Shown one piece after another: positions 47,947 to 64,000 of a DNA stretch of 64,000 nt (the stretch's first letter is position 1; each line of letters opens with the position of its first letter). The DNA is from an uncultured Desulfobacteraceae bacterium. Its GTDB lineage: Bacteria > Desulfobacterota > Desulfobacteria > Desulfobacterales > UBA5852. Where the stretch lies: NCBI GenBank assembly GCA_913060875.1, contig CAJXSL010000007.1:140769-204768 (forward strand), written 5' to 3'. The notes under the pieces were generated by a model that was not told the origin of the DNA, made no database searches, and was given only the letters and a program-made list of their open reading frames with translations. The position numbers and the translations under genes are program-made.

Positions 47947-48996
47947 TCATACCAACCGGATCTTTTCGTCCGGATCATCGAGGACCTCCCCGATCAGGGC
48001 GGCTTCGGCCATTCCGGCCGCTTGCAATTCGGCAACGAGGGCCTCGGCCTGGCTCTCTCGCACACCGATCAACAGCCCGCCCGACGTCTGGGGATCGAAA
48101 AGGATGTCCTGCACCGCCCGCTCCACATTTGGCGCCATATCCACCATGGCCGCACGGAACTCACGGTTTTTATAGGCGCCGGCAGGAATCAGGCCCATGC
48201 CGGCAAACGTCAGGGCGTCTTGAATCACGGGGATTTGGGCGGCAAAAATCCGGGCGCTCCGACCGGACCCGCCCACCATCTCGGCCAGGTGTCCCAGCAG
48301 GCCGAACCCGGTAACATCGGTGCAGGCGCTCACATCGAAACGGGCCATGATTTCCGCGGCCCTGCGGTTCAGATCCGCCATCAGGCGGGTCACCGTCTCC
48401 GTGAGGCCGGCGGATGCCATGCCCGCCTTGATGGCAGTATTGACAATGCCCGTCCCCAGCGGTTTGGTCAGCACCAGCCTGTCCCCCGGCCGCAGGTCCT
48501 GTTTGGTCAGCACCCGGTCGGGGTGCACGAAACCCGTCACGGACAGGCCGTACTTCAACTCCTTGTCCTCGATGCTGTGCCCGCCCATGAGAACGACTTC
48601 GGCTTCCGTCATTTTGTCGATCCCGCCCTGGATGATCCGGCGCAGCACGGACAAATCCATGTCCTTGACCGGGAACGCCACTAGGTTCATAGCCGTCTTG
48701 GGAATACCCCCCATGGCGTAGACGTCGCTCAGGGCGTTGGCGGCCGCGATCTGGCCGAACATGTAGGGATCGTCCACGATGGGAGTAAAAAAATCCACGG
48801 TCTGGATCAGGGCCAGATCGTCGGAAACTTTGTAAACCCCGGCATCGTCCGCGCGGTCCAGCCCCACCAGGACGTTCCCGTCGGTGGGAAACACCATGCC
48901 GCATAAGGCTCGGTCCAGGTCCCCTGGCGCCAGTTTCGACGCTCAGCCGGCCCCCGTTACGGTTTGGGTCAGCCGTATTTGATCATCATCCGCCAT
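47947..48996 (-). CDS. selD: Selenide, water dikinase with selenocysteine (UGA codon 18)
   Basis: 349 residues, reading through TGA at 48943-48945. Makes selenophosphate from selenide and ATP. The frame after the TGA shows DDAGVY, TVDFFTPIVDDPYMFG, NALSDVYAMGG, GGHSIEDKE, DVTGFGLLGHL and DPQTSGGLL. The N-terminus is IRLTQTVTGAGUASK, aligning with E. coli IRLTQYSHGAGCGCK, so U18 equals catalytic Cys17 and K21 equals Lys20. GGAG lies 8 bases before ATG 48996, which overlaps the kinase stop by 11 bases. A hairpin follows the TGA. Gene callers would start it at 48897 and lose the active site. Confidence 0.93.
48915..48927 (-). promoter_or_regulatory. Candidate bacterial SECIS hairpin in selD
   Basis: Minus strand: CCAGG-GGA-CCTGG, beginning 15 bases after the TGA, with G at the first loop positions as in SelB-binding SECIS loops. 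Distance from TGA to loop is 20 bases, within the usual range. Pairing was judged by eye. Confidence 0.6.
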
Positions 48997-49873
48997 GCCT
49001 TACGCTCCGCTTTTCCTTTTGATCCACCAGACCCGCCAAAGCCCGGGGGATATTATCGATCAATTCCGGCACCTGGGTGGCCGGGGTGGGATCACACAGG
49101 GCACCGGTCAGACGGTTGGCCCGGGCCGCCAGGAGGGCAGCCTCGGTCCGCTCAAAACCGCTCCCGGCCAAAACCGTCAACAGACCGGTCAGACTGTCCC
49201 CCGTACCGCCGATCGCCTCCATGGCCTCGAAGGCCGGGGTATCCACCGTGGCGACAATATTTCCGTTTTCAACGATATAATCGGTCCGGCCCTTCACGAC
49301 CATAGCCTCGGCGGTATTGCCGTGTCCATGGGCCTGGCGGATAAGATCGGGGACCTTGTGCTCCCGGTGCAGAATAAATCCCCGGGTGTAAAAGGGATGG
49401 GGCGCTTGGGCATCGGCCAAAAAGGCCAGTTCGCCCACGTCCGGCGTAAAAAAATCGTAATGCCCGGATTGGCCGCCCATTTTGGCAGCATACATGAAAC
49501 CGGCATCGGCGATCAATAACGGTCGCTGCGGCATGGCCTGGGCAGCCAACAGCACCCGGCCATGCCAGTCCACGTCCGGCTGCAGATAATGGAAGGTCAA
49601 CACCTGCAAATCGAATTCGGACAGATGGCGGGCCAGGAACCGGTATAACCGGCGGCTGCCCTCGCCCTGGCCGGTGTCCCCCACCAGAAAGGCATAGACA
49701 TCCTGGCCACCGATGCATTCGGAAGCCCTCAGGGCGGCGGCCAAAAGGGCGGGCGTGCCCCGATTGACGGGAATGCTGCGGCCGTCGATGCCAATCCGCC
49801 GGCCTTCCCAGCGGACTCTGCCATGGGCCAGCGGAAACTGGAGGTCCGGAACCGTACCGACAATGCCTAACAT
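48986..49873 (-). CDS. Ribokinase-like (YjeF C-terminal type) protein in the selenium operon
   Basis: 295 residues. The C-terminal part carries the ribokinase-fold anion hole AIGGTGDSLTGLL (about 240-252), as in NAD(P)H-hydrate dehydratase and hydroxymethylpyrimidine kinases. LLIADAGFMYAAK and FFTPDVGELAFLAD match the preceding strands. The N-terminus (MLGIVGTVPDLQ) lacks the long YjeF N-domain. It overlaps DUF3343 by 7 bases and selD by 11, so it is translationally coupled to both. Its substrate, and any role in selenium handling, are unknown. Confidence 0.8.
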   Translation of the reverse strand: MLGIVGTVPDLQFPLAHGRVRWEGRRIGIDGRSIPVNRGTPALLAAALRASECIGGQDVYAFLVGDTGQGEGSRRLYRFLARHLSEFDLQVLTFHYLQPDVDWHGRVLLAAQAMPQRPLLIADAGFMYAAKMGGQSGHYDFFTPDVGELAFLADAQAPHPFYTRGFILHREHKVPDLIRQAHGHGNTAEAMVVKGRTDYIVENGNIVATVDTPAFEAMEAIGGTGDSLTGLLTVLAGSGFERTEAALLAARANRLTGALCDPTPATQVPELIDNIPRALAGLVDQKEKRSVRHGG

Positions 49874-50415
49874 GTTCGCTGCAACTCCGTGAAGGCCAGT
49901 TCAAGGGCATACCCGCACAGGGTGTGCCCCAGATCCCGGGGCCGCGGTGCGTCCGCCAACGTTTGGCCGATCATGGCCTCGGCCAGATAGGGCACATCCG
50001 GGCACCCGCCGCCTGAAATATTTACGATCCGCCGGCTGTCTTTGGCCACCGTAATTTTCATGTTCGCGGCACGCACCATCAGGTAATCGCCGAAGTCCTT
50101 GGTTTGAAAGAGATCCACCGGGGCCAGCAAAGGCGCGCTCACCGGCACCACCTGTGTCGGCGCAATCCCGGCACTTTCCAAAGCGCGCAGGATATTCAGT
50201 TCCTCGATTAAGGGGAAGACGACCACCAGATCACAGCCGGTGCGAATCTCCGGAGGCGGTCCCATGACCTTGACAGGCCAGCCGGCCTTTTTGAGTTGGT
50301 TTTCGGCCTGGATCACCTCACTGGTGTTTTCGAACACCAGAAGCCCCCGATCCACTGATGATTGGGGCTCCCGTTGTCCGGACACCGTCTTCTTCTTTTT
50401 GAAAAACCCGAACAC
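49867..50415 (-). CDS. DUF3343 putative selenium/sulfur carrier protein
   Basis: 182 residues from GTG 50415 (AAAGGA upstream). After a basic start (FGFFKKKKTV) comes GLLVFENTSEVIQAENQLKKAGWPVKVMGPP, the DUF3343 (PF11823) fold, which family annotation links to selenium or sulfur carriage. A second half contains ISGGGCPDVPYLA and Cys near the end (LQRTC). It starts 3 bases after the TusA-like stop. The C-terminal extension beyond the usual 80-residue domain is unexplained. Confidence 0.8.
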   Translation of the reverse strand: MFGFFKKKKTVSGQREPQSSVDRGLLVFENTSEVIQAENQLKKAGWPVKVMGPPPEIRTGCDLVVVFPLIEELNILRALESAGIAPTQVVPVSAPLLAPVDLFQTKDFGDYLMVRAANMKITVAKDSRRIVNISGGGCPDVPYLAEAMIGQTLADAPRPRDLGHTLCGYALELAFTELQRTC

Positions 50416-50418
50416 TAT

Positions 50419-50637
50419 TTATCCTTTGGTAAGAGCGATGCGATATCCCTCGCCTTCCGAAGCCACATCCGTAATCCGGCAGCCCTGGCTTTCCGCCGCC
50501 CGCACCACGTTTTCCTTGGATGTATCCGTGTCCACGAGGACAATCATCTCGTTGTCGCTGCCCTTCTTGATTTCATCCAATGTCATGATCACCGGCTGCG
50601 GACATGAAAGCCCCCGTGCATCGACTGTCGCTGCCAT
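50419..50637 (-). CDS. TusA-like sulfurtransferase of the selenium operon
   Basis: 72 residues, one TusA/SirA domain with ARGLSCPQPVIMTLDEI (active Cys12, CPxP motif). AAAGGAGG lies before ATG 50637; the longer frame upstream is unsupported. TusA-like proteins beside YedE are thought to take up or pass selenium. Sits between yedE and DUF3343 in one transcript. Confidence 0.9.
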   Translation of the reverse strand: MAATVDARGLSCPQPVIMTLDEIKKGSDNEMIVLVDTDTSKENVVRAAESQGCRITDVASEGEGYRIALTKG

Positions 50638-50681
50638 CGCTAACCTCCTTTGAATCTGAAAAAAGAAAACCCGAATGACGC

Positions 50682-51773
50682 CTAAGCGCTTTTTCCCCGC
50701 ATGGTAAATCCAATAAACAGACAGACTAGGAGCCCCACGACCACCGCGGCGATGCCGTGCGGGCCGACGCCTTTGGGCGAACTGGCCAGTCCGAAATTGT
50801 GGGCGAATCCCGCCCCCACGATCATGCCCATGACGAACACGGCGGCATCGCCATCCCCTTCCCCGGCGAGAAACAATTGGCGACCGGGGCATCCGCCGGC
50901 CAGGGCAAACGCCAGACCGGCCAAGGCCATACCGGCAAAATTCCAGATATGCATGGTGTGGGCCACCGGCTGCCCTGCAAATCCGGCTTTGAACTGGCCG
51001 AGCAGGAGATTGGTCAAAAAAGCCACTACGGTCAGGGCGATGAAGCCACTCAGCAGATGGGTCTGGCCAAAGAGAACCGTGTCCCGAATGGCCCCCATGG
51101 TGCAGAAGCGGCTGCGCTGGGCCAGAAAACCAATGCCCAGCCCCACAACCAGCGACAGGAGCAAAGGCGCATGCATGGCGCCGGGTCCTTTAAGACTGTA
51201 GAACAGAACACCGCTTTTGGCCTGCTCCGGAACCTGGGGAAACATCAGCAGCAGGGCAAACATCCCCACCATGAATAACGGCAGCATCCAGCCAACGGTA
51301 GCATGGGTCACCTGCGTACGGCCCAGGTTGTAGCCCTTTTTGAGGAAGAGCGTGCCGATCCATATGCCGAAGGTCAGACCCAGCAAGCCCAGAATCGCAT
51401 TCCCGTCGCCGCCGGCCAGCCGCAGCACAGCCCGCCAGGGACAGCCCAGAAACACCAGGGCGCCGATCATGGCAAAAGCCCCTAGAATGAACCGGACGAT
51501 GGGGGCCGAGCCCACCCGCGGGCGAAATTCTTTGAAAAGGTAGGCGGCTGCCATGGATCCCAGCACGAAGCCGATGATCTCGGGACGCAGGTACTGCACC
51601 ACCGCCGCCCGGTGAAGCCCCACGGCACCGGCGATGTCCCGCTCGAAGCAGGCCACGCAAATTCCCATATTGCCGGGGTTGCCGAGCTTCTGCAATAGTG
51701 GCGCCAAAATGCCAATCAAGGCGCCCACACCGATGATGCCCCACCGTGTCGCAAAAATGTTTTCCCCTTGCAT
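50682..51773 (-). CDS. yedE: YedE-type selenium transporter
   Basis: 363 residues with about ten membrane helices in two repeats (sulf_transp/YeeE family). Conserved cysteine motifs: GICVACFERD (38-47), FLGCPWR, RSRFCTMGAIRDT and GGCPGRQL. This is the form annotated as selenium metabolism membrane protein YedE, expected to import a reduced selenium species. AGGAGG lies before the ATG. Followed by the TusA-like gene with a 44-base gap. Confidence 0.88.
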   Translation of the reverse strand: MQGENIFATRWGIIGVGALIGILAPLLQKLGNPGNMGICVACFERDIAGAVGLHRAAVVQYLRPEIIGFVLGSMAAAYLFKEFRPRVGSAPIVRFILGAFAMIGALVFLGCPWRAVLRLAGGDGNAILGLLGLTFGIWIGTLFLKKGYNLGRTQVTHATVGWMLPLFMVGMFALLLMFPQVPEQAKSGVLFYSLKGPGAMHAPLLLSLVVGLGIGFLAQRSRFCTMGAIRDTVLFGQTHLLSGFIALTVVAFLTNLLLGQFKAGFAGQPVAHTMHIWNFAGMALAGLAFALAGGCPGRQLFLAGEGDGDAAVFVMGMIVGAGFAHNFGLASSPKGVGPHGIAAVVVGLLVCLFIGFTMRGKSA

Positions 51774-51812
51774 CTACACGAGCCTCCTTCCTGATAAGTC
51801 AACGCAGATTGA

Positions 51813-52013
51813 TCAACTGAACGGACACGCTAATTCACTGGCATGATAGACATGCATTTTTCCGCAAAAGGGACAAGGTTTGTCCAGCGCAACCTTGGCA
51901 TCCAGCGAGCGCTGGCCGGCCGCATCACACACGACCCCCTTGTTCTCCACCACCTGGTAATGCTCGCTTTCAAACACCTTGTTGTGATCCGGGCAGACAA
52001 AGATCAGTTTCAA
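51813..52013 (-). CDS. Small cysteine-rich protein heading the selenium operon
   Basis: 66 residues from TTG 52013 (GAGGGG at 6 bases). Contains CPDHNK, VVCDA, CPFCGKMH and a final CPFS, so zinc or other metal binding is likely. It lies 39 bases upstream of yedE on the same strand. I considered the final TGA as selenocysteine, but reading through adds only a short tail and ends before the yedE start. No named family recognised. Confidence 0.65.
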   Translation of the reverse strand: MKLIFVCPDHNKVFESEHYQVVENKGVVCDAAGQRSLDAKVALDKPCPFCGKMHVYHASELACPFS

Positions 52014-52248
52014 AACAGCCCCTCTTAAAGCCCGCCGCTGGCGATGCGACGCCAGGGCGGGCGTTTACGAGCAATTTCTCGATTTCAAGGCATAGATATA
52101 TAAGCTTCCCCACACGGTCAAATCGTTTAATCGAATACAAATGGGGGGAATCTATTGGTTTCGGGAATAGGTGTGGAGGGCACCCGTCGGTTGGCGTGTG
52201 CCGCAATGGTGGCAGGATCATGGCGCGGCCCAAGCATCAGAGGGTGCG

Positions 52249-53157
52249 CTACAGGAATTTTTGACGCGTTTTCAAATGCCGCTCCATCCCTGTCGGATGA
52301 AAGCCTAAAATCATTTTGGAAGCCTGGTCCGGATCACCGATCCAGTCGTGCCGGTCGAAATAGTCGAGCAGGCCCACCCGTGAAGCCCCCGTGGGAAAAG
52401 CCCAGCGGAAAGCCAGCGGTTGAAGGGCCTTCAGCACGGGAAGAAACCAATGCCCCAGCAAGCGCAGACGGCATCCCGTGGCCGCTTCATAGGCCCGGGC
52501 CACCTCTTGCAGGGTGCGTGCCCGGGGTTCGATAACATCCACCGCACCATACAGGATCTGGCCGTAGCGCATCAGCAGGGTGGCGGCCCGGGCCACATCC
52601 GGCTCGGATGTAAAGCTGAAACGATGGCGCGAGTTAATCGGAAACAGGTAGAACCCCCGTTTCATAAACGGGCGCAAAAAGGCCAGCCAGGCATCCATGT
52701 AGCAACCGGTGCGCAGGCTCGACCAGGGAATACCGCTGGCGGCGATCAGGCGCTCGATGTCCCGTTTGACATCCAGCATCGGCACGCCGGTGGGATGGGA
52801 TGGCTGGATAAGGGAAACATAGATCAGGTGGGGCAGGCACACCCTTCGGGCCGCCGCTACGGCGACGCGGGCCGCCCGCAACTCGATGGCCGTATTATCA
52901 TTGCCGCCCACCGGCGTGATGAGCAGGGCCCCTTTGGCGCCGGCCATTGCGCGGCAGGCACCGGCCACGTCCAGCATACTCCCGCGCAGCACTTCGACAC
53001 CGGGAAAGCGCGCGGCCACGGGACCGGGTTTCCGGGCCAGGATGCGCACCCCCACCCCCTGGACCGCGAACTCGCGGATAAAAGCCCGGCCGAAGGGGCC
53101 CGTGCCCCCAAGGACGGCTATCGTGACGGCATCCGATGTATCCGGCACGGGGTTCAT
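52249..53157 (-). CDS. NmrA-like NAD(P)-binding atypical SDR
   Basis: 302 residues with an N-terminal Rossmann motif VLGGTGPFGRAFI (15-27), then LITPVGGND and LIYVSLIQPSHP, an NmrA/HSCARG-type extended SDR without a clear Tyr-x-x-x-Lys catalytic pair. It may be a nucleotide sensor or reductase. AAGGAG lies 11 bases before the ATG. It diverges from an epimerase-type gene. Confidence 0.8.
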   Translation of the reverse strand: MNPVPDTSDAVTIAVLGGTGPFGRAFIREFAVQGVGVRILARKPGPVAARFPGVEVLRGSMLDVAGACRAMAGAKGALLITPVGGNDNTAIELRAARVAVAAARRVCLPHLIYVSLIQPSHPTGVPMLDVKRDIERLIAASGIPWSSLRTGCYMDAWLAFLRPFMKRGFYLFPINSRHRFSFTSEPDVARAATLLMRYGQILYGAVDVIEPRARTLQEVARAYEAATGCRLRLLGHWFLPVLKALQPLAFRWAFPTGASRVGLLDYFDRHDWIGDPDQASKMILGFHPTGMERHLKTRQKFL

Positions 53158-53488
53158 GATCCCGGCTCTCCTTCCGGCCTATCAAGCAGACACCCGGCAG
53201 TCGCGTGGAAAAGATAAAGACGTCAGGCGCCAGAATCCAAAAGGCACTATTGATGGCATAGGTCTGATTTTCCTTTCAGCTTGACGCTTTGAGCTTGGCG
53301 CTTTTTTCATAGAAGCCTGGCGCTCAATATGCCATCCGTTTCATCTTCCGCTCGTTACCTGGCCCCTCATGAACGCTCGGGAAATAACCTCTAACTAAAA
53401 TTAATGGGCATCTTGACCCCTCGCAAGCGGATTCCTAGCTTTTGGCAGAGATGGCGGACGCTCGCCATTCCTTCCGCAGGACGGCATC
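53158..53488. other. Intergenic stretch with one copy of an exact 33-base repeat
   Basis: No gene is supported. Bases 53270-53302 are the reverse complement of 63707-63739. Both copies contain the pair TTGACGCTTTGAGCTTGGCG on this strand. Promoters of the divergent flanking genes should lie here. Confidence 0.5.
53270..53302 (-). repeat. 33-bp exact dispersed repeat, copy 1
   Basis: Identical, inverted, to 63707-63739. Built from a short internal direct repeat (GCCAAGCTC / GTCAAGCTG). Only two copies were seen here. Confidence 0.7.
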
Positions 53489-54586
53489 ATGAGCCATCGG
53501 TCGGTCATCGTTACGGGGTCGTCAGGCTTTCTCGGAGCAGCCATTTGTGTTGACCTGAGCCGGGACCACCAGGTCTTCGGCATCGACCGCCGGGAGCCTT
53601 CCCAAGCCCTGCGAGCCGCTGCGCCTTCGGTTCAATGGGTGACCATGGACATTGCCGACCGCAACAGCGTCGACACTTTCTTCAATACCATCGATGACCG
53701 CTGCCGGCCTTTGGACTTTGTGCTCCACATGGCCGCCTTCTACCACTTCGGCCAGTACTGGCAGCCCGAAGACGAGCGCACCAACGTCCAGGGCCTGCGC
53801 AATATCCTGGACGGAGCCCGTCGCTTGGGAACCCGCCGTTTCACCTTTGCCGGCAGCATCGCCTCGCTGCCGTCTCCGGCCCCCGGCCAGGCACTGACGG
53901 AAGCGTCCCAGCCCATAGCCTCCCTTGCCTATCCCCGGGCCAAAAGCCTCGGCGAAAAAATGCTGGCCCGATACACGGCAGCGATGCCCACGGTGGCGCT
54001 GCGCATCGCCGGGGTCTTCAGCGACTGGTGTGAACTGCCCCCGCTGTTCAGCCTCATGAAACTCTGGAGCAGAACCGGCCTGTTGGGGCGCTTCATCCCC
54101 GGCCGGGGCAACTCCGGCTTCCCCTACATTCACCGGCAAGATCTGGTGGCGTGCATCCGCCAGATCATCACACGGCACGAACAACTGGCGCGCAGTGAAA
54201 CGCTTTTCGCCTCGCCCGATGGATGCACGACCCACAATGCGCTCTTTCCCGTCATCCGGCGCAACGCATCTCACCGCTTGTCTCCCCAGCCGGTCTATGT
54301 CCCGACCTGGGCGGCCCAATGGGGATTGTTTTTCAAAAACAGCATCAAGGTGTTGATTCAGCAGGAACGGTATGAACGCCGATGGATGATGGCCTATGTG
54401 GACCGGCCCCTGGTGGTGGACACGGCCTACACGCGGAAGGTTTTGGAGTGGTCCCCGGCACCCGAGAGGGGCATCCTCGAACGCCTGCCGGTCATGATGA
54501 AGCGTTTCCGGGAGGATCGCCATGCCTGGGAGCACCGCAATATCCGCCGCAACGAGGGCGACTATCAGTATGGCGAAAAAAGCTGA
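53489..54586 (+). CDS. NAD-dependent epimerase/dehydratase-family protein
   Basis: 365 residues: Rossmann motif VTGSSGFLGAAIC (8-20), DIADR, HMAAFYHFG, FAGSIASL, and Y-P-R-A-K (catalytic Tyr-x-x-x-Lys, about 149-153) in SLAYPRAKSLGEKML, an extended SDR. The C-terminus is long and basic (WMMAYVDRPLVVDTAYTRKVLEW, then HRNIRRNEGDYQYG). Resembles sterol- or sugar-type 3-beta-hydroxysteroid dehydrogenase relatives; substrate unknown. Ribosome site weak (AGGACGG). Confidence 0.8.
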   Translation: MSHRSVIVTGSSGFLGAAICVDLSRDHQVFGIDRREPSQALRAAAPSVQWVTMDIADRNSVDTFFNTIDDRCRPLDFVLHMAAFYHFGQYWQPEDERTNVQGLRNILDGARRLGTRRFTFAGSIASLPSPAPGQALTEASQPIASLAYPRAKSLGEKMLARYTAAMPTVALRIAGVFSDWCELPPLFSLMKLWSRTGLLGRFIPGRGNSGFPYIHRQDLVACIRQIITRHEQLARSETLFASPDGCTTHNALFPVIRRNASHRLSPQPVYVPTWAAQWGLFFKNSIKVLIQQERYERRWMMAYVDRPLVVDTAYTRKVLEWSPAPERGILERLPVMMKRFREDRHAWEHRNIRRNEGDYQYGEKS

Positions 54587-54711
54587 TTTTTATCAGGTTT
54601 TTCAATTTGCATTTCAAGGAATTCCAGGGTATGGCAACTCATTTCTCGAAGACACCCGGCGCAAAACCGCCGGCGGGTGCCGGTTTGATCAACAATAAAA
54701 CTTTGACCACC

Positions 54712-54830
54712 CCGTAAAAAGTAATATAGCTGTCATTCCGGACTTGATCCGGAATCTCTAACCGTTTGATACCACAAGATTCCGGCTTCCGCCGGAATGA
54801 CGTCCAAACGGCAGCGGTGACTTTTTACGG
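54712..54830. mobile_element. Nested palindromic element, 119 bp (MITE-like)
   Basis: Ends CCGTAAAAAGT (54712-54722) and ACTTTTTACGG (54820-54830) are perfect inverted repeats. Inside, 54732-54801 is a second inverted repeat with GTCATTCCGG and CCGGAATGAC ends, each arm holding a smaller hairpin. The type recurs in many Desulfobacterota and other Proteobacteria from memory. No gene inside. It fills most of the gap upstream of the YkgJ-like gene. Confidence 0.65.
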
Positions 54831-54876
54831 CTCCATCAACTTTAGTTTCATAAGGTCGGACTGAAGTCGCATATCA

Positions 54877-55488
54877 ATGAAGCAAAAATTCAAAGCACTG
54901 CAGGGAATTTACGAGGCCTTCGCCCGCGAAACAGCCCCGTTCCGCCGTGAGGCCGCCTGCACCAAGGGCTGTGCCTTCTGCTGCACCGATGCGGGCCGCA
55001 TCGACTGCACGACCCTGGAGGGATTGGCCATTCGCGATCATATCCAACGGATGCCCCGCGCCCGCCAGACCAGCGTTAAAAAAGCCTTGAAGCAGGATAT
55101 GAAAAGACGCGAAGCCGGCCGGCCCTCGCCCTGCCCCTTCCTCATGAAGACCAGGGCCTGCATGATCTACGACATTCGCCCTTTCGCCTGCCGGCGCATC
55201 TACAGCCTGCATCGCTGCTCCAAAGAGCAGCCGCCCCTGATCAGCCGCCAGGTAATGGCCCTTGCCGCCGGCACCATCAAGGCGCTCCAGCACCTGGACG
55301 ACAACGGCTACTCCGGCCACCTGTCCTACATCCTGCACATGCTGGATGCCCCGCGGTTCCTGGCCACCTACCGGGCTGGGAAATTCAAGCCGGAAGAAGT
55401 CATGGCCTTCGGTAAATCCCACGGCATCGTCATCAATCGCATGATGCGGGACGCCGTGCCATCTCCCCCCCCTGACAACGCCCCTTAA
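54877..55488 (+). CDS. YkgJ-type CxxxCxxCC protein
   Basis: 203 residues. The metal-chelating motif C28-x3-C32-x2-C35-C36 (CTKGCAFCC) is followed by CPFL and PFACRRIY, the layout of the Fe/Zn-chelating YkgJ domain (PF03692). Members may be metal carriers or protein-maturation factors. There is no clear ribosome site before the ATG at 54877. It converges with a small membrane protein gene (stop overlap of about 4 bases). Confidence 0.8.
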   Translation: MKQKFKALQGIYEAFARETAPFRREAACTKGCAFCCTDAGRIDCTTLEGLAIRDHIQRMPRARQTSVKKALKQDMKRREAGRPSPCPFLMKTRACMIYDIRPFACRRIYSLHRCSKEQPPLISRQVMALAAGTIKALQHLDDNGYSGHLSYILHMLDAPRFLATYRAGKFKPEEVMAFGKSHGIVINRMMRDAVPSPPPDNAP

Positions 55489-55730
55489 CCGCCAGAATGA
55501 TGATGTCGGGAATCCCCTCGGGACCGGTGGTTTGCTTTCCAGGCATCCGCCACAGGGACGAGGAAAACAAGGCAGGCCACCAAAAAAGCAAGGCTGCCGG
55601 CGACCGCCATAACATCCCGGTTTTTCAGACTGGAGAACAGGTAGAACAACGCGCATAGGATAAACAGCATCCATCCCACCAGTTGGCACTTCAGCTTGCG
55701 GTCTTCTTGTCGATTGCGTTCGTTTTTCAT
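55485..55730 (-). CDS. Small two-helix membrane protein
   Basis: About 81 residues: a basic N-terminus (MKNERNRQEDRKLK), two membrane helices (QLVGWMLFILCALFYLF and VAGSLAFLVACLVFLVPVA), and a His-rich tail (RHHHSGG). ATG 55730 has AAGGTG at about 12 bases; another in-frame ATG at 55763 would overlap the radical SAM gene. Function unknown. Its position behind a radical SAM gene suggests a shared transcript. Confidence 0.55.
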   Translation of the reverse strand: MKNERNRQEDRKLKCQLVGWMLFILCALFYLFSSLKNRDVMAVAGSLAFLVACLVFLVPVADAWKANHRSRGDSRHHHSGG

Positions 55731-55749
55731 TCGGGCTGATTCACCTTTT

Positions 55750-56652
55750 TTATGCGAGGCCATAAACTTGACGGGGGGCCAGATATTCGGGATAGATACC
55801 GACAGCGGTCTTGCGCACGGTGTAGCAAAAATGGCAGGCATCAATATACCCAGCCTCCGGAGCGATGCCCAATGCGCCCGCCAAGGCCGACGGCCCGCCT
55901 TCAATCAGCGGCCCACAGACCGGGTGATCCATCGGACGGTATTGCCGCACGAGTTGGGAAAGGGGCGTCGTCCACATGTTACCCATGCTGATGCCTTGGC
56001 ACAGGTGAACATGTCCGAAAGGATCGATGTGCACCCGCGACGGGTTTTCCAGGTCTTCATAGGGGCATTCCCGCATCGCCTGCGGGGGGCTGAGCGGAAG
56101 GCCGCCGGACAGTTTTTCGACGGCCCGCCCCCTGAACTTGGCGCCGCCGCCGATGACCGGGTTGCCCTTGCCACCGGCACCATCGTCCGCAGATTCCACT
56201 TCCGGCGCTTCGATGCAGATAGACGATGTCTCGATGCCCAGCCGCCGGGCCGCCTTAAATGCCGTGGCGGCAGGGTTTTCCGACGTGTCGCCGTAGTGAA
56301 AGCGGTCATTGCTGATGCTGAGATAGGACAGACCAGCCGCGGCAAGGGGTTTCAGCCACAACGCCGCGTCTTGATCGGAAATAGCGCCATAGGCATTGGT
56401 CACCACTCCCACCTTGAACCCTTTGGCATGGGCACGCCGGATACCCTCCACCAGCAGAGGATAAAAAAGAAACGGCTCCCCGCCCTCGAAGAATATCCAC
56501 TCGATGGTCCCGATCTTCTCGGCCTCGGCCAGCGTCCTGTCCACCTGCCCGATAGTAAAGGTGCCCTGTGCCTGCGGGCTGCTGAAAAGAAAGCAGTGGT
56601 CGCATTCGAAATTGCACGTGTAGGTCAGGATAAAGTGGATTCCGGTCAACAT
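55750..56652 (-). CDS. Radical SAM/SPASM-type protein
   Basis: 300 residues. The radical SAM cluster motif is C13-x3-C17-x2-C20 (CNFECDHC), followed by FFEGGEPFLFYPLL and VVTNAYG. The C-terminal part has CPYEDL, HLCQGISMGN, CGPL and CHFCYTVR, consistent with an auxiliary 4Fe-4S (SPASM or twitch) domain. Such enzymes often modify peptides or proteins. ATG 56652 is preferred (GGGG site) over 56688. No precursor peptide was found next to it; the small membrane protein downstream is a possible partner. Confidence 0.85.
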   Translation of the reverse strand: MLTGIHFILTYTCNFECDHCFLFSSPQAQGTFTIGQVDRTLAEAEKIGTIEWIFFEGGEPFLFYPLLVEGIRRAHAKGFKVGVVTNAYGAISDQDAALWLKPLAAAGLSYLSISNDRFHYGDTSENPAATAFKAARRLGIETSSICIEAPEVESADDGAGGKGNPVIGGGAKFRGRAVEKLSGGLPLSPPQAMRECPYEDLENPSRVHIDPFGHVHLCQGISMGNMWTTPLSQLVRQYRPMDHPVCGPLIEGGPSALAGALGIAPEAGYIDACHFCYTVRKTAVGIYPEYLAPRQVYGLA

Positions 56653-56748
56653 GGCCTTGCCCCCCTTCTCCTTCAATTGGTTACGCAAATTTGTAATTCT
56701 TAAGCGGTTATCCAGAAAGACCAGGTTTGGTTAAATGCAACAGCTTGA

Positions 56749-56828
56749 ACCACGAAGATTACGAAGGACACGAGGGGGCTCAACTGCTCTGGCCGGTTTT
56801 TCTTCGTGCTCTTCGTGCTCTTCGTGGT
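56749..56828. repeat. CCACGAAG-type inverted repeat
   Basis: Left arm CCACGAAGATTACGAAGGACACGAG and right arm built from repeated CTTCGTG units (CTTCGTGCTCTTCGTGGT) form an imperfect inverted repeat of about 80 bases. The same motif is widespread in bacterial intergenic regions from memory. Its tandem-like look is not a CRISPR array. Confidence 0.65.
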
Positions 56829-56862
56829 AAATTCTTGTTGACGGGAGCTTTGCAGAGAACCG

Positions 56863-57111
56863 TTAATTCTTATCCCCTCGATGCAATTCCTTTCTAACGG
56901 CATCAAGAATTTTATTCTTATCCGGAAATTTGAGCCGATCCTTCTCCTCAACGCACTTGCCGTTTACCCAAACCGTAAACTCACCCAGTTTACCGCCCGG
57001 ATCGATGTCAACTTCGATGCCGGATTCTTTTTTGATATAAGCCGCCACACGGGCGGCAAACAAACGATTGTGAAGTCAAACTTTACAATATCGTATGGTG
57101 ACTTTTTCCAT
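56863..57111 (-). CDS. SelW-like (Rdx family) selenoprotein with C-x-x-U motif
   Basis: 82 residues reading through TGA at 57076-57078. The start is MEKVTIRYCKVULHNR, the Rdx redox motif C9-K-V-U12 after the first strand, then FAARVAAYIKKES, a DPGGKLGEFTVWVNGKCV strand pair, and LKFPDKNKILDAVRKEL, the pattern of SelW/SelT thioredoxin-like proteins. ATG 57111 has GAGGT 6 bases upstream. Without readthrough only a startless 66-codon frame remains, so automated callers would miss or truncate it. A 6-bp hairpin lies 18 bases after the TGA. Function: small thiol/selenol redox protein, partner unknown. Confidence 0.9.
57041..57057 (-). promoter_or_regulatory. Candidate bacterial SECIS hairpin in the SelW-like gene
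   Basis: Minus strand: GCCGCC-CGTGT-GGCGGC, six pairs, starting 18 bases after the TGA; loop 24 bases after it. The loop holds GU, in keeping with SelB recognition. Found by eye. Confidence 0.6.
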
Positions 57112-57744
57112 TGAACACCTCTTTTTAATCGGCGCGGGAACAGCCGGTTGCGGTTTATGCGGTTGGCGCACCACTCAAAAAATTGGAGAAAACCCTGCAA
57201 TTGAAACAATCATAATATAGTTCACCCGGATATTTCACGCGTTCGAGATGTTCATTGACAAGGCATCAGGGGCGCCGCTGTACGCCTGTACCGCAAGCGC
57301 CTGATAACGCGGTCAATGGGCATCTCGGGCGCGCCCGCAGGGTGAAACTTTTTCTATGATTATGGAAATCGGCGAAGAGCACAACGTGTCACCTGAAAAT
57401 TATACCCCGATAGCGTTTATACCCTTGAATAGTTGCCTAAAATTTATTGTGTAGGGAAAATTTCATGAAATATCCGGGTTAAGGCATTTTATTGCAGCCA
57501 TATCGGGCTTTATCATAAGACATGGGCATCATCAATCAATCGACAGGCCCGTTGGGACGAGGTCAAAATTCTTGTTCCGTATGCTACAGAGATCACCCAT
57601 ACCAACGTTTTTTATCGCCGGTCCAGGATCGCCCGCAAAATTTAAGTACGAACCATTGATTTTCAAATCGGACAGGCGCATAACATCGGCGGAAAAAAGC
57701 GGATGGTTCGATCGAGCGCTGGAAAACGAGGACACAAAGCTGAT
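57112..57744. other. Intergenic region mostly occupied by a 262-bp inverted-repeat element
   Basis: Only non-coding sequence is recognised here. The element at 57221-57482 takes up about 40 percent. The amine oxidase frame is open back to 57703 but unsupported. Confidence 0.5.
57221..57482. mobile_element. Non-autonomous element, 262 bp, 17-bp terminal repeats
   Basis: TTCACCCGGATATTTCA at 57221-57237 and TGAAATATCCGGGTTAA at 57466-57482 are inverted repeats with one mismatch. The interior is GC-rich on the left and AT-rich on the right and carries no transposase. Similar CCCGGATATTTCA ends are familiar in this group from memory. No target duplication was clear. Confidence 0.6.
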
Positions 57745-58824
57745 ATGCATTCTGAAAACGTTGACACCATCATCATTGGAGGTGGCCTCAGCGGCATTTA
57801 CACGGCCTTTTTGCTGGCGGCCCAAAAAATGCCGTTCGTCTTGCTCGAAGCCCGATCCCGCTTAGGCGGCCGCATCCTAAGCCCTGAGCACCAGGGCTTT
57901 TTTGCCGACCTGGGGCCATCCTGGTATTGGCCCATGATCAACCCCCACATAACCGCGCTGATAAAGACCCTGGGGCTTGAAGGATACCCCCAGTTTGAAA
58001 CGGGGCTGTGCCGATTCCAAGCCAAGGACGGCCACACGGAAACCATTGAAGGCTATCCAATGGAGCCGCCCGGATGGCGGCTTAAGGGCGGCATGATATC
58101 CCTTGTTCAGGGGCTTGGCACCCGGATTCCCCGGGAGGCCATCCGGCTGAATCATCCGGTCTGCGAAATCGAACGGCAGGACAGAGGCATTCGGGTGACG
58201 GTGGGGCGTCTCGACCAGGCCCCCCTCTGCCGGCTGACGGCATCCCGGATCATCCTCGCATTGCCGCCCCGGCTGGCAGCGCGCTCCATTTTATTTACAC
58301 CGGATTTGTCCTACGATCTTACCCAGGCCATGTTGAGGTCAAGCACCTGGATGGCAGGACACGCCAAATTCTTCGCCCTTTACGACAAGGCGGATTGGCG
58401 AAAGATCGGCCTCTCCGGCCAGGGGTTCAGCCTGTGCGGCCCCATGGGAGAAATTCATGACGGATCCGGCGAGGCCAGCAGGCCTTACGGACTGACCGGA
58501 TTTCTCGGCACCCCGGCATTGCGGCGCAAGGATAAGGAAACCATGATCCAGGCCATCCTCGCCCAGCTTCCCCTGCTTTACGGGCCGGAGGCCGGCCATC
58601 CCGTCAAAGTATATTATCAGGATTGGGCCCGGGAAGAATTTACGGCCACGGAATATGACCAGCGGTCCGCCCATAATCATCCCGAATTCGATCCCCCCGC
58701 CGGGAAAACCAGCATCTGGGACGACACCTTCCATTTTGCCGGCACCGAAACCGCCGACCATCTGCGCGGCTACCTCGAAGGCGCTTTAGCCAGTGCGGAA
58801 CGCGCGGCGTCGGCGGTCATCTGA
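57745..58824 (+). CDS. FAD-dependent amine oxidase-like protein
   Basis: 359 residues: FAD motif IIIGGGLSGIYTAFLL (9-24) with ALLE-type acid (VLLEARSRLGGRI), the flavin amine oxidase signature, and a C-terminal FHFAGTETADHLRGYLEGALASAERAA that contacts the flavin. Substrate unknown: monoamines, carotenoid-like or protoporphyrinogen-type compounds are possible. ATG 57745 has GAGG about 13 bases upstream. Next gene on the other strand overlaps its end by 8 bases. Confidence 0.82.
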   Translation: MHSENVDTIIIGGGLSGIYTAFLLAAQKMPFVLLEARSRLGGRILSPEHQGFFADLGPSWYWPMINPHITALIKTLGLEGYPQFETGLCRFQAKDGHTETIEGYPMEPPGWRLKGGMISLVQGLGTRIPREAIRLNHPVCEIERQDRGIRVTVGRLDQAPLCRLTASRIILALPPRLAARSILFTPDLSYDLTQAMLRSSTWMAGHAKFFALYDKADWRKIGLSGQGFSLCGPMGEIHDGSGEASRPYGLTGFLGTPALRRKDKETMIQAILAQLPLLYGPEAGHPVKVYYQDWAREEFTATEYDQRSAHNHPEFDPPAGKTSIWDDTFHFAGTETADHLRGYLEGALASAERAASAVI

Positions 58825-59326
58825 TGTTTCTTTTCGGATTGAATTCCAGAGAAGAAAAAGGGCCGAGGGTTCGAGATGAGAAAAGATGGACGGTGTAGTG
58901 TTTGGGCGTTTCATATCGGCTATTAGGAAAACCTCTGTAAGGGGTCAAAAATTGAGGTGAATAATTTGATGTATCAGTATACCAGAAGGGAGTTTTACTT
59001 CGTTTGCATAATTGGTTAGATATTACAGACCTAATCGAAACTTCGATTCGCTCTAATGCGTCAATTACCAAAAGACGAAGTTTGCGGTCCTTTACGTACA
59101 AATCAAGTACGTTATCGAATATTACACCAGTCTGGAAATTACTATCAGGGTCAGCTTGATAGGGTTTAAAATAGGCAGACAACCGGTAGTAGCCGATGGT
59201 TTCAATATATTGTTTGGCGCGGTCCTTATCGGGAATAATCAGGTTTCGGGATTCAAGCAACTCGATATGCTGATCTGGTGAGAGGGGTTGTTTTTGAAAA
59301 TAGGTTGGTTTCCATTTACCCGATCT
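58817..59326 (-). pseudogene. Abi-2/AbiD-F-type abortive infection gene, truncated
   Basis: The frame carries the start of the Abi_2 domain: PLSPDQHIELLESRNLIIPD, IGYYRLSAYFKPYQ and LRLLVIDALERIEVSIRS. No ATG, GTG or TTG lies between the in-frame TAG at 59327 and the domain, so the start is lost (a +1 shift gives an ATG at about 59314). After about 110 residues it leaves the family pattern and ends at 58817, half the usual length of about 300. Likely a dead defence gene. Confidence 0.6.
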
Positions 59327-59824
59327 CTATCCAAGGGTCGGAAACCCAAAACAGCCACTCAATCTTTGCATAGTTATCAGGGCAATATGCCCCAAAAAAC
59401 CGAGCATCAGAGGTGGACGGGAACGAACCGATCCGGTGTCAAAGATAACTTAATCAATAAAGGCAGAATATTAGCGCGCCTTTAATGGCGTATTTTGCGC
59501 CTATTTTGGCATGTTCTATCAAACACTTGGTTTAATTGCTATTTCAATCCTGTTTGCCGACTTTCAGTGCCATTTTTGGCGCACCTATACTGCACGCGCC
59601 TAATCTGAAATCCTCCCTCTGATCGTGCCGCATAAAAAAATTTGACATGCTATTTTAGTTAGTTAGCCTTCATCCCACCCAAAAGGGCTCCCCTCTGGCA
59701 CACCCCTTGTAAATGCCCCTCCCCACAAGTTTTCCCGTACAAAATGCTTTAGGGGACAATTCTCGTAAATTCTATCCCGCCGGGATTACAGGACATATAG
59801 CTGGAAAACGGTGAGGACGCCGTT
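59327..59824. other. AT-rich stretch upstream of the hydrogenase operon
   Basis: About 500 bases, more AT-rich than its surroundings at 59500-59680, with no supported gene. It should hold the promoter for the HTH-ech transcript; none is clear. Confidence 0.5.
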
Positions 59825-60253
59825 GTGCATCACCCCAAGAAATTTGTGTCGCCGCTTTCGCCGGAAGCGGTGGCCGGGCTGGAAAAACTGATGAAGCAGG
59901 ACCTGTCGGCCCGGGTCCGCATGCGGGCCCACAGCATCCTGCTGAGCCATCGCAAAATGAGCATCGGTGTCATCGCGGCCTTTTACAATGTCAGCCGCGA
60001 TACGGTGTCCGGATGGATCGACCGCTGGGAGCAGGAGGGGTTGCAAGGACTGCGGGACCGGCCGCGCAGCGGCGCGCCGCGTATGATTACCGAGGCCGAC
60101 CGGGCGTTGATTCGCTCCCTGGTGCGCCGGTACCCGCACTCCAGCCGCACCGTCATTAACATATTTGCCGCCCGCACCGGCAAAACCATCAGCGAATCCA
60201 CGATTCGCCGTATTTTGAAAGAAGGCCCGAAACCCTGTAACCGCTTTGCCTGA
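59825..60253 (+). CDS. IS630-type helix-turn-helix protein without a transposase catalytic domain
   Basis: 142 residues from GTG 59825 (GAGG at 9 bases). It contains two helix-turn-helix units like the N-terminal half of IS630-family transposases: SIGVIAAFYNVSRDTVSGWIDRWEQEGLQGLRDRPRSGAPR and TEADRALIRSLVRRYP to TISESTIRRILKE. The DDE catalytic domain is absent and the stop lies 10 bases before echA, whose ribosome site follows at once. So it appears to be a regulator-like protein coupled to the hydrogenase genes, or a chance remnant. No terminal repeats bracket it. Confidence 0.75.
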   Translation: MHHPKKFVSPLSPEAVAGLEKLMKQDLSARVRMRAHSILLSHRKMSIGVIAAFYNVSRDTVSGWIDRWEQEGLQGLRDRPRSGAPRMITEADRALIRSLVRRYPHSSRTVINIFAARTGKTISESTIRRILKEGPKPCNRFA

Positions 60254-60263
60254 AAGGAACTTC

Positions 60264-62171
60264 ATGCCGTCGCTGCTGCTTTTCATGTGCATTCTGGTCC
60301 CCATCATCGCCGGGGTACTGTGCTACCTGGTGCGCATCGGCTTTGCCCGCACCCTGACCGTCCTGGTCACGGGGGCGGTGTTGACCGCCGGTTCGCTGAT
60401 GCTCCTGGGCCACGGCACCTTTACCTATGTGCCGCCGTCGCCCTGGGCCGGCCTGGTGAACACCGCCATCACCCTGGCCGACTTCGCCCTGCTGGCGATC
60501 ATGTTCGGTATCGCGCGCAAACACCGCAGCAAGCTGATCATGACCCTGGTGGTCCTGCAGGCGGTGCCCCTGCTCTTTTTCGAACTGTTCATGGTGGATC
60601 ACGGTGCGCCGGCCCCCGGCTTCTATGGCGACAACCTCTCCCTGATCATCACCCTGCTGGTCTCCATCGTCGGCTCGCTGATCTGCGTGTTCGCCCTGCC
60701 CTACATGCAAAAGCACGAAGCGCACCTGCACCTGAAGCGCTCCCGCCAGCCGCAGTTCTTTTTTCTGCTGCTGATCTTTCTGGGCGCCATGAACGGGCTG
60801 GCCCTGTCCAACAATATCGCCTGGCTGTACTTCTTTTTCGAGGTCACCACGTTCTGTTCGTTCATGCTGATCGGCCATGACGGCACCCCGATCGCCGTTA
60901 AAAACGCTTTGCGGGCGTTGTGGATGAACTCCCTGGGCGGCGTGGCCTTCGTCTTCGGCATGATCGGCGCCCATCATATTGCCGGTACCACCGACATCCA
61001 GCAGATCATCGCTTCGGGCCCTATGGGCGGCGCCCTGCTGGTGCCCCTGGCCCTGCTCTGCCTGGCCGGGTTCACGAAATCGGCCCAGGTGCCTTTCCAG
61101 AGCTGGCTGCTGGGCGCCATGGTGGCCCCCACCCCGGTATCGGCCCTGCTGCACTCGAGCACGATGGTCAAAGCCGGTGTCTACGTGATCTTCCGGTTTG
61201 CCCCGACCTTTGCCGGCACCTTTTTCAGCCAGGGTTTGGCCATCGTAGGGTCGTTCACGTTCCTGGTGACCATCGCCCTGGCCCTGGGCCAGCGCAACGG
61301 CAAAAAGATTCTGGCCTACTCCACCATCTCCAACCTGGGCCTGATCATTGCCTGCGCGGGCATCAACACGCCCACGGCCCTGGCCGCCGGCATCCTGCTG
61401 ATCATCTTCCACGCCATTTCCAAAGCCCTGCTGTTTCTCTGTGTCGGCACCATCGAACAGGAAATCGGCAGCCGGGACATCGAAGATATGCGCGGACTTT
61501 TCGCCGTCAAACCCCGCATTGCCGTGATCACCGTGATCGGCATCATGACCATGCTGCTGCCGCCCTTCGGGGTGTTGATCAGCAAGTGGATGGCCATCGA
61601 GGCCGCCTCCAACAATCTGCCCGCGGTGGGTATGATCGCCATGGGCAGCGCCCTGGGCTTCGTGGTCTGGGGCCGCTGGGCCGGGATCCTCATGAGCGCC
61701 TCCTATAAGAAAGGCCTCAAGCCGGAGCCCATGTCCGCCTTTGTCAACGGCCCCCTGAGCGTGCTGGCCGGCGGTGCGGTCCTCTTCAGCCTGGTGCTGC
61801 CCTGGATCTACAGCCTGCTGGTGAAGCCCATGCTGGCATTCGCCCCTTACCAGGTCCATTTCGGCAGCCTCGACAGCAGCATCGGCGGCTTCACCGTGAT
61901 TCCCATCTTTCTCATCCTGGCGGCCGGGTTCGTCTATGCCCTGAAACAGGCCCAGAAAACCCGGGCGCGCCACGTGGCCCCCATGTACATGTCCGGCGTC
62001 CACAGTGGCGGTCCGGATGACGAAACCTTTCGCGGCCCCATGAACAAGATCGTCCAGATCGAAACCGGCAACTACTACCTGACCCGGCTCTTCGGCGAAG
62101 AACGGTTGACCTTCTGGGTCAACAACGTTGCCGTGGCCCTGCTCGTTCTCATGATGGGAGGTGCCCTGTGA
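60264..62171 (+). CDS. echA: Ech hydrogenase subunit EchA (NuoL/MrpA-like)
   Basis: 635 residues, about 16 membrane helices of the proton-antiporter (complex I ND5) family. Recognised: WLYFFFEVTTFCSFMLIG, LCLAGFTKSAQVPFQSWLLGAMVAPTPVSALLHSSTMVKAGVYV (channel Lys and His) and a long C-terminal amphipathic region. Start ATG 60264 with AAAGGA upstream; an upstream in-frame start at 60246 would overlap the HTH gene. First structural gene of the ech order. Confidence 0.88.
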   Translation: MPSLLLFMCILVPIIAGVLCYLVRIGFARTLTVLVTGAVLTAGSLMLLGHGTFTYVPPSPWAGLVNTAITLADFALLAIMFGIARKHRSKLIMTLVVLQAVPLLFFELFMVDHGAPAPGFYGDNLSLIITLLVSIVGSLICVFALPYMQKHEAHLHLKRSRQPQFFFLLLIFLGAMNGLALSNNIAWLYFFFEVTTFCSFMLIGHDGTPIAVKNALRALWMNSLGGVAFVFGMIGAHHIAGTTDIQQIIASGPMGGALLVPLALLCLAGFTKSAQVPFQSWLLGAMVAPTPVSALLHSSTMVKAGVYVIFRFAPTFAGTFFSQGLAIVGSFTFLVTIALALGQRNGKKILAYSTISNLGLIIACAGINTPTALAAGILLIIFHAISKALLFLCVGTIEQEIGSRDIEDMRGLFAVKPRIAVITVIGIMTMLLPPFGVLISKWMAIEAASNNLPAVGMIAMGSALGFVVWGRWAGILMSASYKKGLKPEPMSAFVNGPLSVLAGGAVLFSLVLPWIYSLLVKPMLAFAPYQVHFGSLDSSIGGFTVIPIFLILAAGFVYALKQAQKTRARHVAPMYMSGVHSGGPDDETFRGPMNKIVQIETGNYYLTRLFGEERLTFWVNNVAVALLVLMMGGAL

Positions 62172-63019
62172 TCAAGGATACCCTGCTCGTTCTCTTCGCC
62201 CTGGCGGGTGCACCGCTGCTGGGCGGCTTTATGGCCGGCATCGACCGCCGCATCACCGCACGCCTGCAGGCGCGCTTCGGCCCGCCCATCATGCAGCCCT
62301 TCTACGATGTGGCCAAACTCTTCGGCAAACAGATGATCGTGCCCAACTCGTGGCAGGTCTTCTGCGCCTATGTCTACCTGGTGGGCGCCGTGCTGTCGGT
62401 GGTGCTCTTCTTTCTGCAGTCGGATCTCCTGCTGATCTTCTTCGTCCAGGCCGTGGGGGCGGTCTTCCTGGTCCTTGGCGGCATGGCCGTGCCCTCGCCT
62501 TACGCCCAGGTGGGCGCCCAGCGGGAACTGATCCAGGTGCTGACCTACGAGCCCCTGTTGATCCTGGTATTCGTCACCATCTATTCGGTGACCGGCAGCT
62601 TCAAGATCTCCGCCATCTACGCCCACGAGGCGCCCCTGCTGAAAGAGCTGCCCCTGATTTTCATCGTCTTGACCTATGCCCTGACCATCAAACTGCGCAA
62701 GTCGCCCTTTGATTTTTCCACTTCCCACCATGGTCATCAGGAAATCGTCAAGGGCGTGCTGACCGAGCACTCCGGCCCCATCCTAGGCCTTATCGAGGTG
62801 GGGCACTGGTATGAGACGGTTTTGATCCTGGGGCTGTGCGCCCTGTTCTGGGCCACCAGCCCGGTGGGTATGATTATCCTGATCACCGCCACCTATTTTG
62901 CGGAGCTGATCGTGGACAATGCCATGGCCCGCATGACCTGGCGCTGGATGCTGGGCTACGTCTGGAGCGTGGGACTGGCCATGTCGGTTATTAACATAAT
63001 CTGGCTTTACGCCAAGTAA
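62168..63019 (+). CDS. echB: Ech hydrogenase subunit EchB (NuoH-like)
   Basis: 283 residues, eight membrane helices of the complex I ND1 family, with ARLQARFGPPIMQPFYDVAKLFGKQ and AQRELIQVLTYEPLLIL, conserved loops facing the cytoplasm. The GTG start overlaps the echA stop (GTGA at 62168-62171), so translation is coupled. The stop TAA at 63017-63019 overlaps the left end of an inserted inverted-repeat element. Confidence 0.9.
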   Translation: MIKDTLLVLFALAGAPLLGGFMAGIDRRITARLQARFGPPIMQPFYDVAKLFGKQMIVPNSWQVFCAYVYLVGAVLSVVLFFLQSDLLLIFFVQAVGAVFLVLGGMAVPSPYAQVGAQRELIQVLTYEPLLILVFVTIYSVTGSFKISAIYAHEAPLLKELPLIFIVLTYALTIKLRKSPFDFSTSHHGHQEIVKGVLTEHSGPILGLIEVGHWYETVLILGLCALFWATSPVGMIILITATYFAELIVDNAMARMTWRWMLGYVWSVGLAMSVINIIWLYAK

Positions 63020-63161
63020 GGTCCTTTCAGAAATGGTCTTTTTGAACCTGCTCGTCGTTCTCCGCAGATTTTCCTGCTGCGGCGTACCAAAGTACGCCTC
63101 ACAGCAAAACCCTTGTGCGGCCTTGATCAGGATCAAAAATCCTCACTTCTGAAAGGACCTT
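63018..63161. mobile_element. MITE-like element, 144 bp, 15-bp perfect terminal repeats
   Basis: AAGGTCCTTTCAGAA at 63018-63032 and TTCTGAAAGGACCTT at 63147-63161. An inner palindrome GCGTACCAAAGTACGC and a CTTGATC stretch sit in the same order as in the 13626 element, so the two may be cousins. It is inserted inside the ech operon at the stop codon of echB, 45 bases before echC. Confidence 0.65.
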
Positions 63162-63205
63162 GCGATAATCTCGCCCGACCAATTTATAAAGAGAAGAAAA
63201 ACACC

Positions 63206-63649
63206 ATGATCAAAGACTTCATCGAAAAATCACGCGCCAAATCCCCATGGATGGTTCACTTCGACTGCGGCAGCTGCAACGGCTGCGACATCGAAACCCT
63301 GGCCTGCCTGACGCCCATCTATGACGTGGAGCGCTTCGGGGTGGTGAACGTGGGCAACCCCAAGCACGCCGACCTCCTGATGGTGACCGGGGCCGTGAAC
63401 CACCGCAACAAACACGCCCTCAAAAAAATCTACGACCAGATGCCGGATCCCAAGGCGGTTGTGGCCATCGGCGCCTGCGGCCTGTCCGGGGGCGTATTCC
63501 GGGAAGCGTACAATGTGGTGGGCGGCATCGACAAGGTCATCCCCGTGGATGTCTACGTCTACGGTTGCCCCCCGAAACCGGAAGCCATTATCGATGGCGT
63601 GGTCAAGGCCATCGAAACCTTCAAGGCCAAGGCCCGTGAAGCGGCGTGA
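63206..63649 (+). CDS. echC: Ech hydrogenase small subunit EchC (NuoB-like)
   Basis: 147 residues. The 4Fe-4S ligands of a group 4 hydrogenase small subunit are present: CGSCNGCDIETLAC (21-34), GACGLSGG and YGCPPKPEAII. Carries electrons between ferredoxin-linked clusters and the NiFe site. ATG 63206 follows AAGAGAAG; the frame is open to 63113 through the MITE, which is unsupported. Follows echB after the inserted element and precedes echD. Confidence 0.92.
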   Translation: MIKDFIEKSRAKSPWMVHFDCGSCNGCDIETLACLTPIYDVERFGVVNVGNPKHADLLMVTGAVNHRNKHALKKIYDQMPDPKAVVAIGACGLSGGVFREAYNVVGGIDKVIPVDVYVYGCPPKPEAIIDGVVKAIETFKAKAREAA

Positions 63650-63838
63650 AGCTAATGGGCCAGGGGTTCAAGGATTCGAGGGGGCGAGTGAAAGGTTCTT
63701 ATAGGAAGCGCCAAGCTCAAAGCGTCAAGCTGAAAGGAACAGCAGGCGTTGCTGGAGGTTTGAGGTTGGAGGAACTATCCGGGCCGCTGAAACAGGACAT
63801 CAGAAAACCGTGATTCAGGAAAACAGGAAAAACAGATC
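63650..63838. other. Spacer between echC and echD
   Basis: 189 bases, unusually long for an operon. It contains the second copy of a 33-base repeat (63707-63739) and a purine-rich run (GGAGGTTTGAGGTTGGAGGA). No gene. Confidence 0.5.
63707..63739 (+). repeat. 33-bp exact dispersed repeat, copy 2
   Basis: Reverse complement of 53270-53302, identical by eye over all 33 bases. Contains AGCGCCAAGCTC and GCGTCAAGCTG sub-units. Lies inside the ech operon spacer. Confidence 0.7.
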
Positions 63839-64000
63839 ATGATCGAAAATATGTATTCCATCAGCGTGGATGAAATCGTTGGCCAGGCCGGCCGCATGAA
63901 GCAGGACGGCTACCGCCTGGTGACCCTGACGGCGGTGGATCTCAACGAGCATGAGGTGGACCTTATCTATCACTTCGACCGGGACCTGAAAATGAAGCAT
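63839..64000 (+). CDS. echD: Ech hydrogenase subunit EchD (NuoC-like), 5' part
   Basis: The first 54 codons only; the gene runs off the window. It reads like the N-terminus of NuoC/EchD (VDEIVGQAGRMKQDGYRLVTLTAVDLNEHEVDLIYHFD), a soluble subunit contacting the large subunit. ATG 63839 has GGAAAA upstream. Its place after echC fits the ech order. The large subunit (echE) and ferredoxin-type subunit (echF) should follow. Confidence 0.75.
   Translation, partial: MIENMYSISVDEIVGQAGRMKQDGYRLVTLTAVDLNEHEVDLIYHFDRDLKMKH

Follow-up and report, generated by a model that had tools for sequence, protein, structure and literature searches.

A minus-strand reading frame interrupted by an in-frame TGA raises the question of whether it is broken at that codon or continues through it with selenocysteine (Sec). 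The frame lies in the window, the whole 64,000-nt stretch of DNA analysed here, from an uncultured Desulfobacteraceae bacterium. A sequence-only reading had proposed that a startless 66-codon frame becomes a complete 82-residue protein of the Rdx family if the TGA is read as Sec, and this was borne out, on the minus strand, which that reading had left unstated. The gene begins with ATG at 57111-57109 and ends with a TAA stop at 56865-56863, and its post-TGA portion is the 66-amino acid ORF that the list of open reading frames starts at a TTG. Read on the plus strand, 56863-57111 is unrelated to the selenoprotein frame, and that reading was set aside. As argued below, the locus is very probably a functional selenoprotein gene in which the TGA is read as Sec. 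The features on which the argument draws are these:

56863..57111, minus strand: putative Rdx/SelW-like selenoprotein gene, ATG..TGA(Sec)..TAA, 82 residues
57076..57078, minus strand: in-frame TGA, predicted selenocysteine at residue 12, motif C9-K-V-U12
57116..57122, minus strand: ribosome-binding-site-like AGAGGTG, read from the sequence
57041..57057, minus strand: predicted bSECIS hairpin, 6-bp stem, 5-nt loop CGUGU, UGA-to-loop distance 24 nt

The ribosome site that had been claimed is present as AGAGGTG at 57122-57116, and its GAGG is separated from the ATG by 6 nt. The family assignment also stood, the window protein scoring 34.2 bits against Pfam PF10262 (Rdx; cut-off 22.6 bits) over residues 3-74 of 82, and 33.6 bits with 11 upstream residues added. 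Pfam Rdx was matched at E<=0.01 by all 14 scanned members of the clade described below. The label 'SelW-like' holds at the level of Pfam and of fold, but not against the NCBIfam SelW/T/H model TIGR02174 (CXXU_selWTH), where the window protein reaches 23.6 bits under a curated cut-off of 34.2; against NF041051 (SelTWH_Campy) it reaches 32.6 bits under a curated cut-off of 88. These two are the closest NCBIfam models and the best NCBIfam matches, and 14/14 members scanned matched both at E<=1, the comparison with the cut-offs being one of the window protein alone out of the 14. Taken by itself, the post-TGA part scores 20.7 bits against Rdx and has a TTG available, and it might be supposed to encode a separate short protein with an internal start and a chance resemblance to Rdx. 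This is scarcely conceivable, since residues on both sides of the TGA are conserved together and the pre-TGA part raises the Rdx match from 20.7 to 34.2 bits. Support for the selenoprotein reading is far above chance because of the two Rdx scores (34.2 bits, and 20.7 bits for the post-TGA part) and the 14 other intact members that carry the same TGA.

In a single-sequence AlphaFold model of the window protein (pLDDT 82, pTM 0.70), the order of strands and helices is E-H-E-E-E-H and the CxxU motif sits in the beta1-alpha1 loop. Foldseek placed 2fa8, 3dex and 2p0g at the top ranks for this model, two of which (2fa8 and 2p0g) carry selenoprotein W-related titles. In VIA-align, the bacterial structures 3dex, 2fa8, 2obk, 2p0g, 2oka and 2ojl scored Z 10.0-10.8; 2obk is titled as a putative Se-binding protein, and 3dex, 2oka and 2ojl we take to be Rdx proteins too. 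Mouse SelW followed at Z 8.1, a value that is uninformative by itself because two RNA 3'-cyclase chains, non-Rdx by title, equal it at Z 8.0-8.1. The sole PDB sequence match at E<=1 was human MIEN1/C17orf37 (2ljk; E 3e-4, 76 residues). This eukaryotic Rdx protein has the same fold as the window model (VIA-align Z 8.5) and 20% identity in the structural alignment, but carries Cys where the window protein has Sec. For the 82-residue product we predict a thioredoxin-like Rdx fold.

Relatives of the gene were sought at several taxonomic depths. A search of 389 genomes of the class, using as query an alignment of eight members with Cys at the Sec column, gave matches in 29 genomes and intact close members (E < 1e-35) in 14, counting the window genome. 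Among 86 genomes of one family, G774 was found to hold a fifteenth intact copy; a second family, with 30 genomes searched, gave four hits, all known already, and no new member. Across 395 genomes of the phylum, the best match outside the window genome scored 34.6 bits and was not a clade member. A separate scan of genome contigs gave a single locus (L022, Maribellus luteus) with a 26-residue match, for which no YC..U/C motif was shown, and this was dropped as a chance match. The 15 intact members, window gene included, are spread over six families of one bacterial order (f1, f9, f15, f30, f35 and f36, the window genome belonging to f1), with 44-76% identity between the window protein and each of the remaining 14.

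A tree was built from 55 Rdx proteins, 15 of them clade members and 40 of them other Rdx rows. The branch that has all members on one side carries support of 100/99 and was recovered in all of 200 bootstrap trees; this tree is rooted at the midpoint only, and it comes with a warning of long branches meeting. Outside the clade, 56 candidate loci had been taken; three yielded no row (L097, L102 and L104) and 13 were duplicates, which leaves the 40 rows. An earlier tree of 48 rows (14 members and 34 others), from which Rdx rows failing a motif pattern, such as L014 and L019, had been omitted, supported the clade branch at 100/100.

Codon 12 is UGA in 15/15 intact members and Cys in none, even though the query profiles had Cys in that column. 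The aligned position is Cys in distant Rdx relatives (CITC in L011, CGVC in L063, and Cys also in L064). The predicted C-x-x-U motif is present, as C9-K-V-U12 in the window protein. The sequence-only reading had named the lack of any homologue with Cys or Sec at this site as a refutation, and homologues of both kinds exist. The sequence past the UGA is free of stops for 62 codons in 13/13 sequences tested, with a median dN/dS of 0.12 and a maximum of 0.30 (48 of the 78 pairs had usable dS). We conclude from these comparisons of sequences that the post-UGA region is under purifying selection, and we take translation through the UGA to be shown to be under selection.

These findings bear directly on the possibility that the Rdx gene is decaying and the TGA is a true nonsense mutation. 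Such a pseudogene would have a frame interrupted under the standard code, as is seen here; it would also agree with the lack of the gene from the same-genus genomes searched and with the state of one clade copy, in G091, which is broken after about 26 codons with its UGA retained. We nevertheless consider decay very improbable, given that the TGA occupies the same codon in 15/15 intact members from six families and that the post-TGA dN/dS is about 0.12; for the clade as a whole it is already refuted. In the G091 stretch (L084, around 1316), an opposite-strand ORF of 409 amino acids spans from 44 nt past the UGA onward. An insertion is a possible cause of the broken copy. No copy was found in four genomes of the same genus or in one of the same family, which are 80-97% complete; loss or horizontal spread would each fit this absence and the differing gene neighbours described below.

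A census of Rdx proteins over 291 genomes of the order gave 35 matches, spread over 33 of them, with TGA in 32 of the 35; three of those 32 are clade members, and the three matches lacking TGA comprise one with Cys and two that are partial. The census is a lower bound because several clade members, and the window gene too, escaped it. The window genome has two Rdx matches, with one in-frame TGA each.

The host genome scores over the cut-off for SelA (616.4 bits), SelB (355.6 bits) and tRNA-Sec (75.6 bits), the last also reported by ARAGORN as tRNA-SeC with anticodon TCA. Among 14 control genomes, one exceeded the cut-off for SelA, two for SelB and five for tRNA-Sec. SelD and two other selenium genes are encoded within the window:

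47947-48996, minus strand: SelD, 378.7 bits (cut-off 125)
47269-47865, minus strand: YedF, follows SelD
50682-51773, minus strand: YedE, putative selenium transporter, 484.6 bits (cut-off 200)

SelD contains an in-frame UGA of its own at 48945-48943, corresponding to residue 18 (GAGUASK). A second YedF-like ORF, sub-threshold at 48.2 bits against a cut-off of 110, adjoins YedE within 50422-51773 on the minus strand. The selenoprotein gene lies away from the selenium operon, as had been claimed, about 5 kb from the window's selenium genes at 47269-51773. Judged from these matches, the Sec machinery (SelA, SelB, SelD and tRNA-Sec) is present in the host genome.

Readthrough of the UGA by some means other than Sec insertion, for example suppression that places Trp or Cys there, would also yield a full-length protein, and the relation between the downstream hairpin and readthrough is one that we infer. 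Even so, we judge such readthrough highly unlikely: SelA, SelB, tRNA-Sec and a UGA-containing SelD are all found in the genome, the UGA-less relatives read (L011, L063 and L064) have Cys and not Trp, and the hairpin conforms to the rules for bacterial SECIS elements in PMC13188914. Those rules call for a stem of 4-16 bp, a loop of 3-9 nt with G in one of its first two positions, a distance of 16-37 nt from the UGA, and a minimum free energy (MFE) of -7.5 kcal/mol or lower. The window hairpin (57057-57041, GCCGCC-CGUGU-GGCGGC) starts 18 nt past the UGA, where it had been expected, and agrees with each of these rules (6 bp, CGUGU with G second, 24 nt, -13.3 kcal/mol). The hairpin alone is not convincing, because 18/200 dinucleotide shuffles fold as well (z only -1.4).

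Comparison covered a set of 15 sequences, the 14 intact members other than G774 plus the broken copy. Two of the 15 miss the energy limit of -7.5 kcal/mol, and five have another minimum-energy fold (structures compared by eye). Standard pairs occupy 87.8% of helix cells, vs 81.9% in shuffles, and the covariation score is 0.303, vs 0.176; none of 500 shuffles was as high in either measure. Helix cells changed on both sides number five, vs 1.4 in shuffles (1/500). Two further counts showed no excess in this set, namely pairs with a change on both sides (409/500 shuffles as high) and further pair types (178/500). Control helices slid along the alignment were lower both in cells paired and in covariation score.

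One pair joins columns 24 and 36, each the third position of an Ala codon. The bases there are CG in seven sequences, AU in three, UA in two, UG in two and unpaired in one, so that 14/15 are paired vs 4.3 expected from rough local codon usage; the corresponding P of 3e-7 assumes independent sequences, which they are not. In G774, inspected by eye, this synonymous pair is C-G and the next pair is broken. RNAalifold alone favours pairing columns 21-24 to 33-36, a slid helix that has no covarying pair, and against a synonymous-codon null the mean z is -1.07 for bases 16-45 and -0.31 over the whole 51 nt, three members having no energy excess over that null. The pair count speaks for the hairpin more strongly than either of these analyses. 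A scan with Rfam gave no match anywhere in the window at gathering scores. We read the hairpin as a real but weak-to-moderate bSECIS, mainly on the synonymous covariation.

If the TGA is read as Sec, the SelB-GTP-Sec-tRNASec complex would recognise the hairpin and insert Sec at the UGA. The 82-residue product would adopt the thioredoxin-like Rdx fold and place Cys9 and Sec12 just ahead of helix 1. As family, motif and fold suggest, this pair may cycle between a reduced thiol/selenol and an oxidised Cys9-Sec12 selenenylsulfide, and the couple may, as inferred from the family, serve to reduce a substrate, either a protein or a small molecule.

The 2005 Sargasso Sea survey (PMC1088965) describes SelW-like CxxU selenoproteins, and they are abundant in the GOS data (PMC2398784); both of these marine surveys report the SelW-like family as their most numerous selenoprotein family. 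Desulfotalea psychrophila and Geobacter sulfurreducens are listed with such proteins in PMC1794560, and the 2022 and 2026 reviews (PMC9312934, PMC13188914) include the family as well. Its function is called unclear or largely uncharacterised in PMC1088965 and PMC13188914. The window protein resembles bacterial SelW-like proteins in the place of the CxxU motif, in belonging to Rdx, in its length of about 80 residues, and in a UGA followed by an apical hairpin; it is a divergent member of these already known selenoproteins and not a new kind. Its own genome also encodes an ordinary SelW-like selenoprotein (L001, C-S-Q-U-N-Y), on the same contig about 59 kb beyond the window; the window protein is 32% identical to L001 and is a divergent paralogue of it.

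Several differences set the clade apart. Where canonical SelW-like proteins have U-N-Y-x-P, the clade has U-[LVI]-[HR]-N, and V-W-V occurs within a strand in 15/15 members. Relative to five of the six non-clade relatives aligned, the clade has one extra residue before strand 3 and another right after Sec; the latter is not unique to the clade, because the Cys relative L063 has one too. The distance from UGA to loop is 24 nt in the window gene; it is shorter in a canonical gene, L013 (21 nt), and in the paralogue L001 (22 nt). A Cys form of the clade was not seen in the genomes searched, and a canonical SelW paralogue shares the cell with a clade member in at least two genomes (G000 and G318). 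It is conceivable, though we lean against it, that the clade constitutes a distinct Sec-only SelW subfamily restricted to one bacterial order. In that case the conserved V-W-V strand, together with the changed loop around Sec (C-x-[VI]-U-x-[HR]-N), would imply a substrate unlike that of the canonical SelW paralogue, and Cys would be unable to replace Sec. A description of the clade was not found in the selenoprotein literature searched, and an earlier one may exist. With Sec in 15/15 intact copies, the clade offers a clean set for asking what Sec, as opposed to Cys, contributes in this fold. Ordinary gene calling probably truncates or misses clade genes; omission by a gene finder, which the sequence-only reading had also expected, is plausible and agrees with the window protein scoring under both NCBIfam cut-offs.

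Inspected by eye in 15 stretches (14 intact members, the window genome included, plus the broken copy; G774 left out), several of them cut by contig ends, the neighbourhood contains no neighbour common to the whole set. Two same-genus genome pairs, L079/L081 and L076/L084, have neighbours in common. Context gives no partner because the neighbours vary across genomes and the gene is missing from close genomes. Downstream on the same strand lies a Radical SAM protein (55750-56688, minus strand; Pfam Radical_SAM, 40.1 bits), and the same-genus genome G164 has a 65-66% identical Radical SAM neighbour without the Rdx gene. When window positions 50000-64000 were compared by blastn with the 8-kb stretch of G164 as a candidate empty site, nothing else matched, and an empty site did not emerge.

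The gene had also been placed between repeat elements, and there are repeats on both sides. An element of 106 bp at 56740-56845 carries inverted CCACGAAGA-type arms; counting the element itself, the genome has 33 matches at E<=0.001, and eight of these are full-length at 92-100% identity. Upstream of the selenoprotein gene, a 17-nt inverted pair (57221-57237 and 57466-57482) is 94% complementary, with 228 nt between its arms. Further upstream, a 147-amino acid Abi_2 (Abi-like) protein at 58817-59260 on the minus strand covers only the first 84 of the 184 profile positions.
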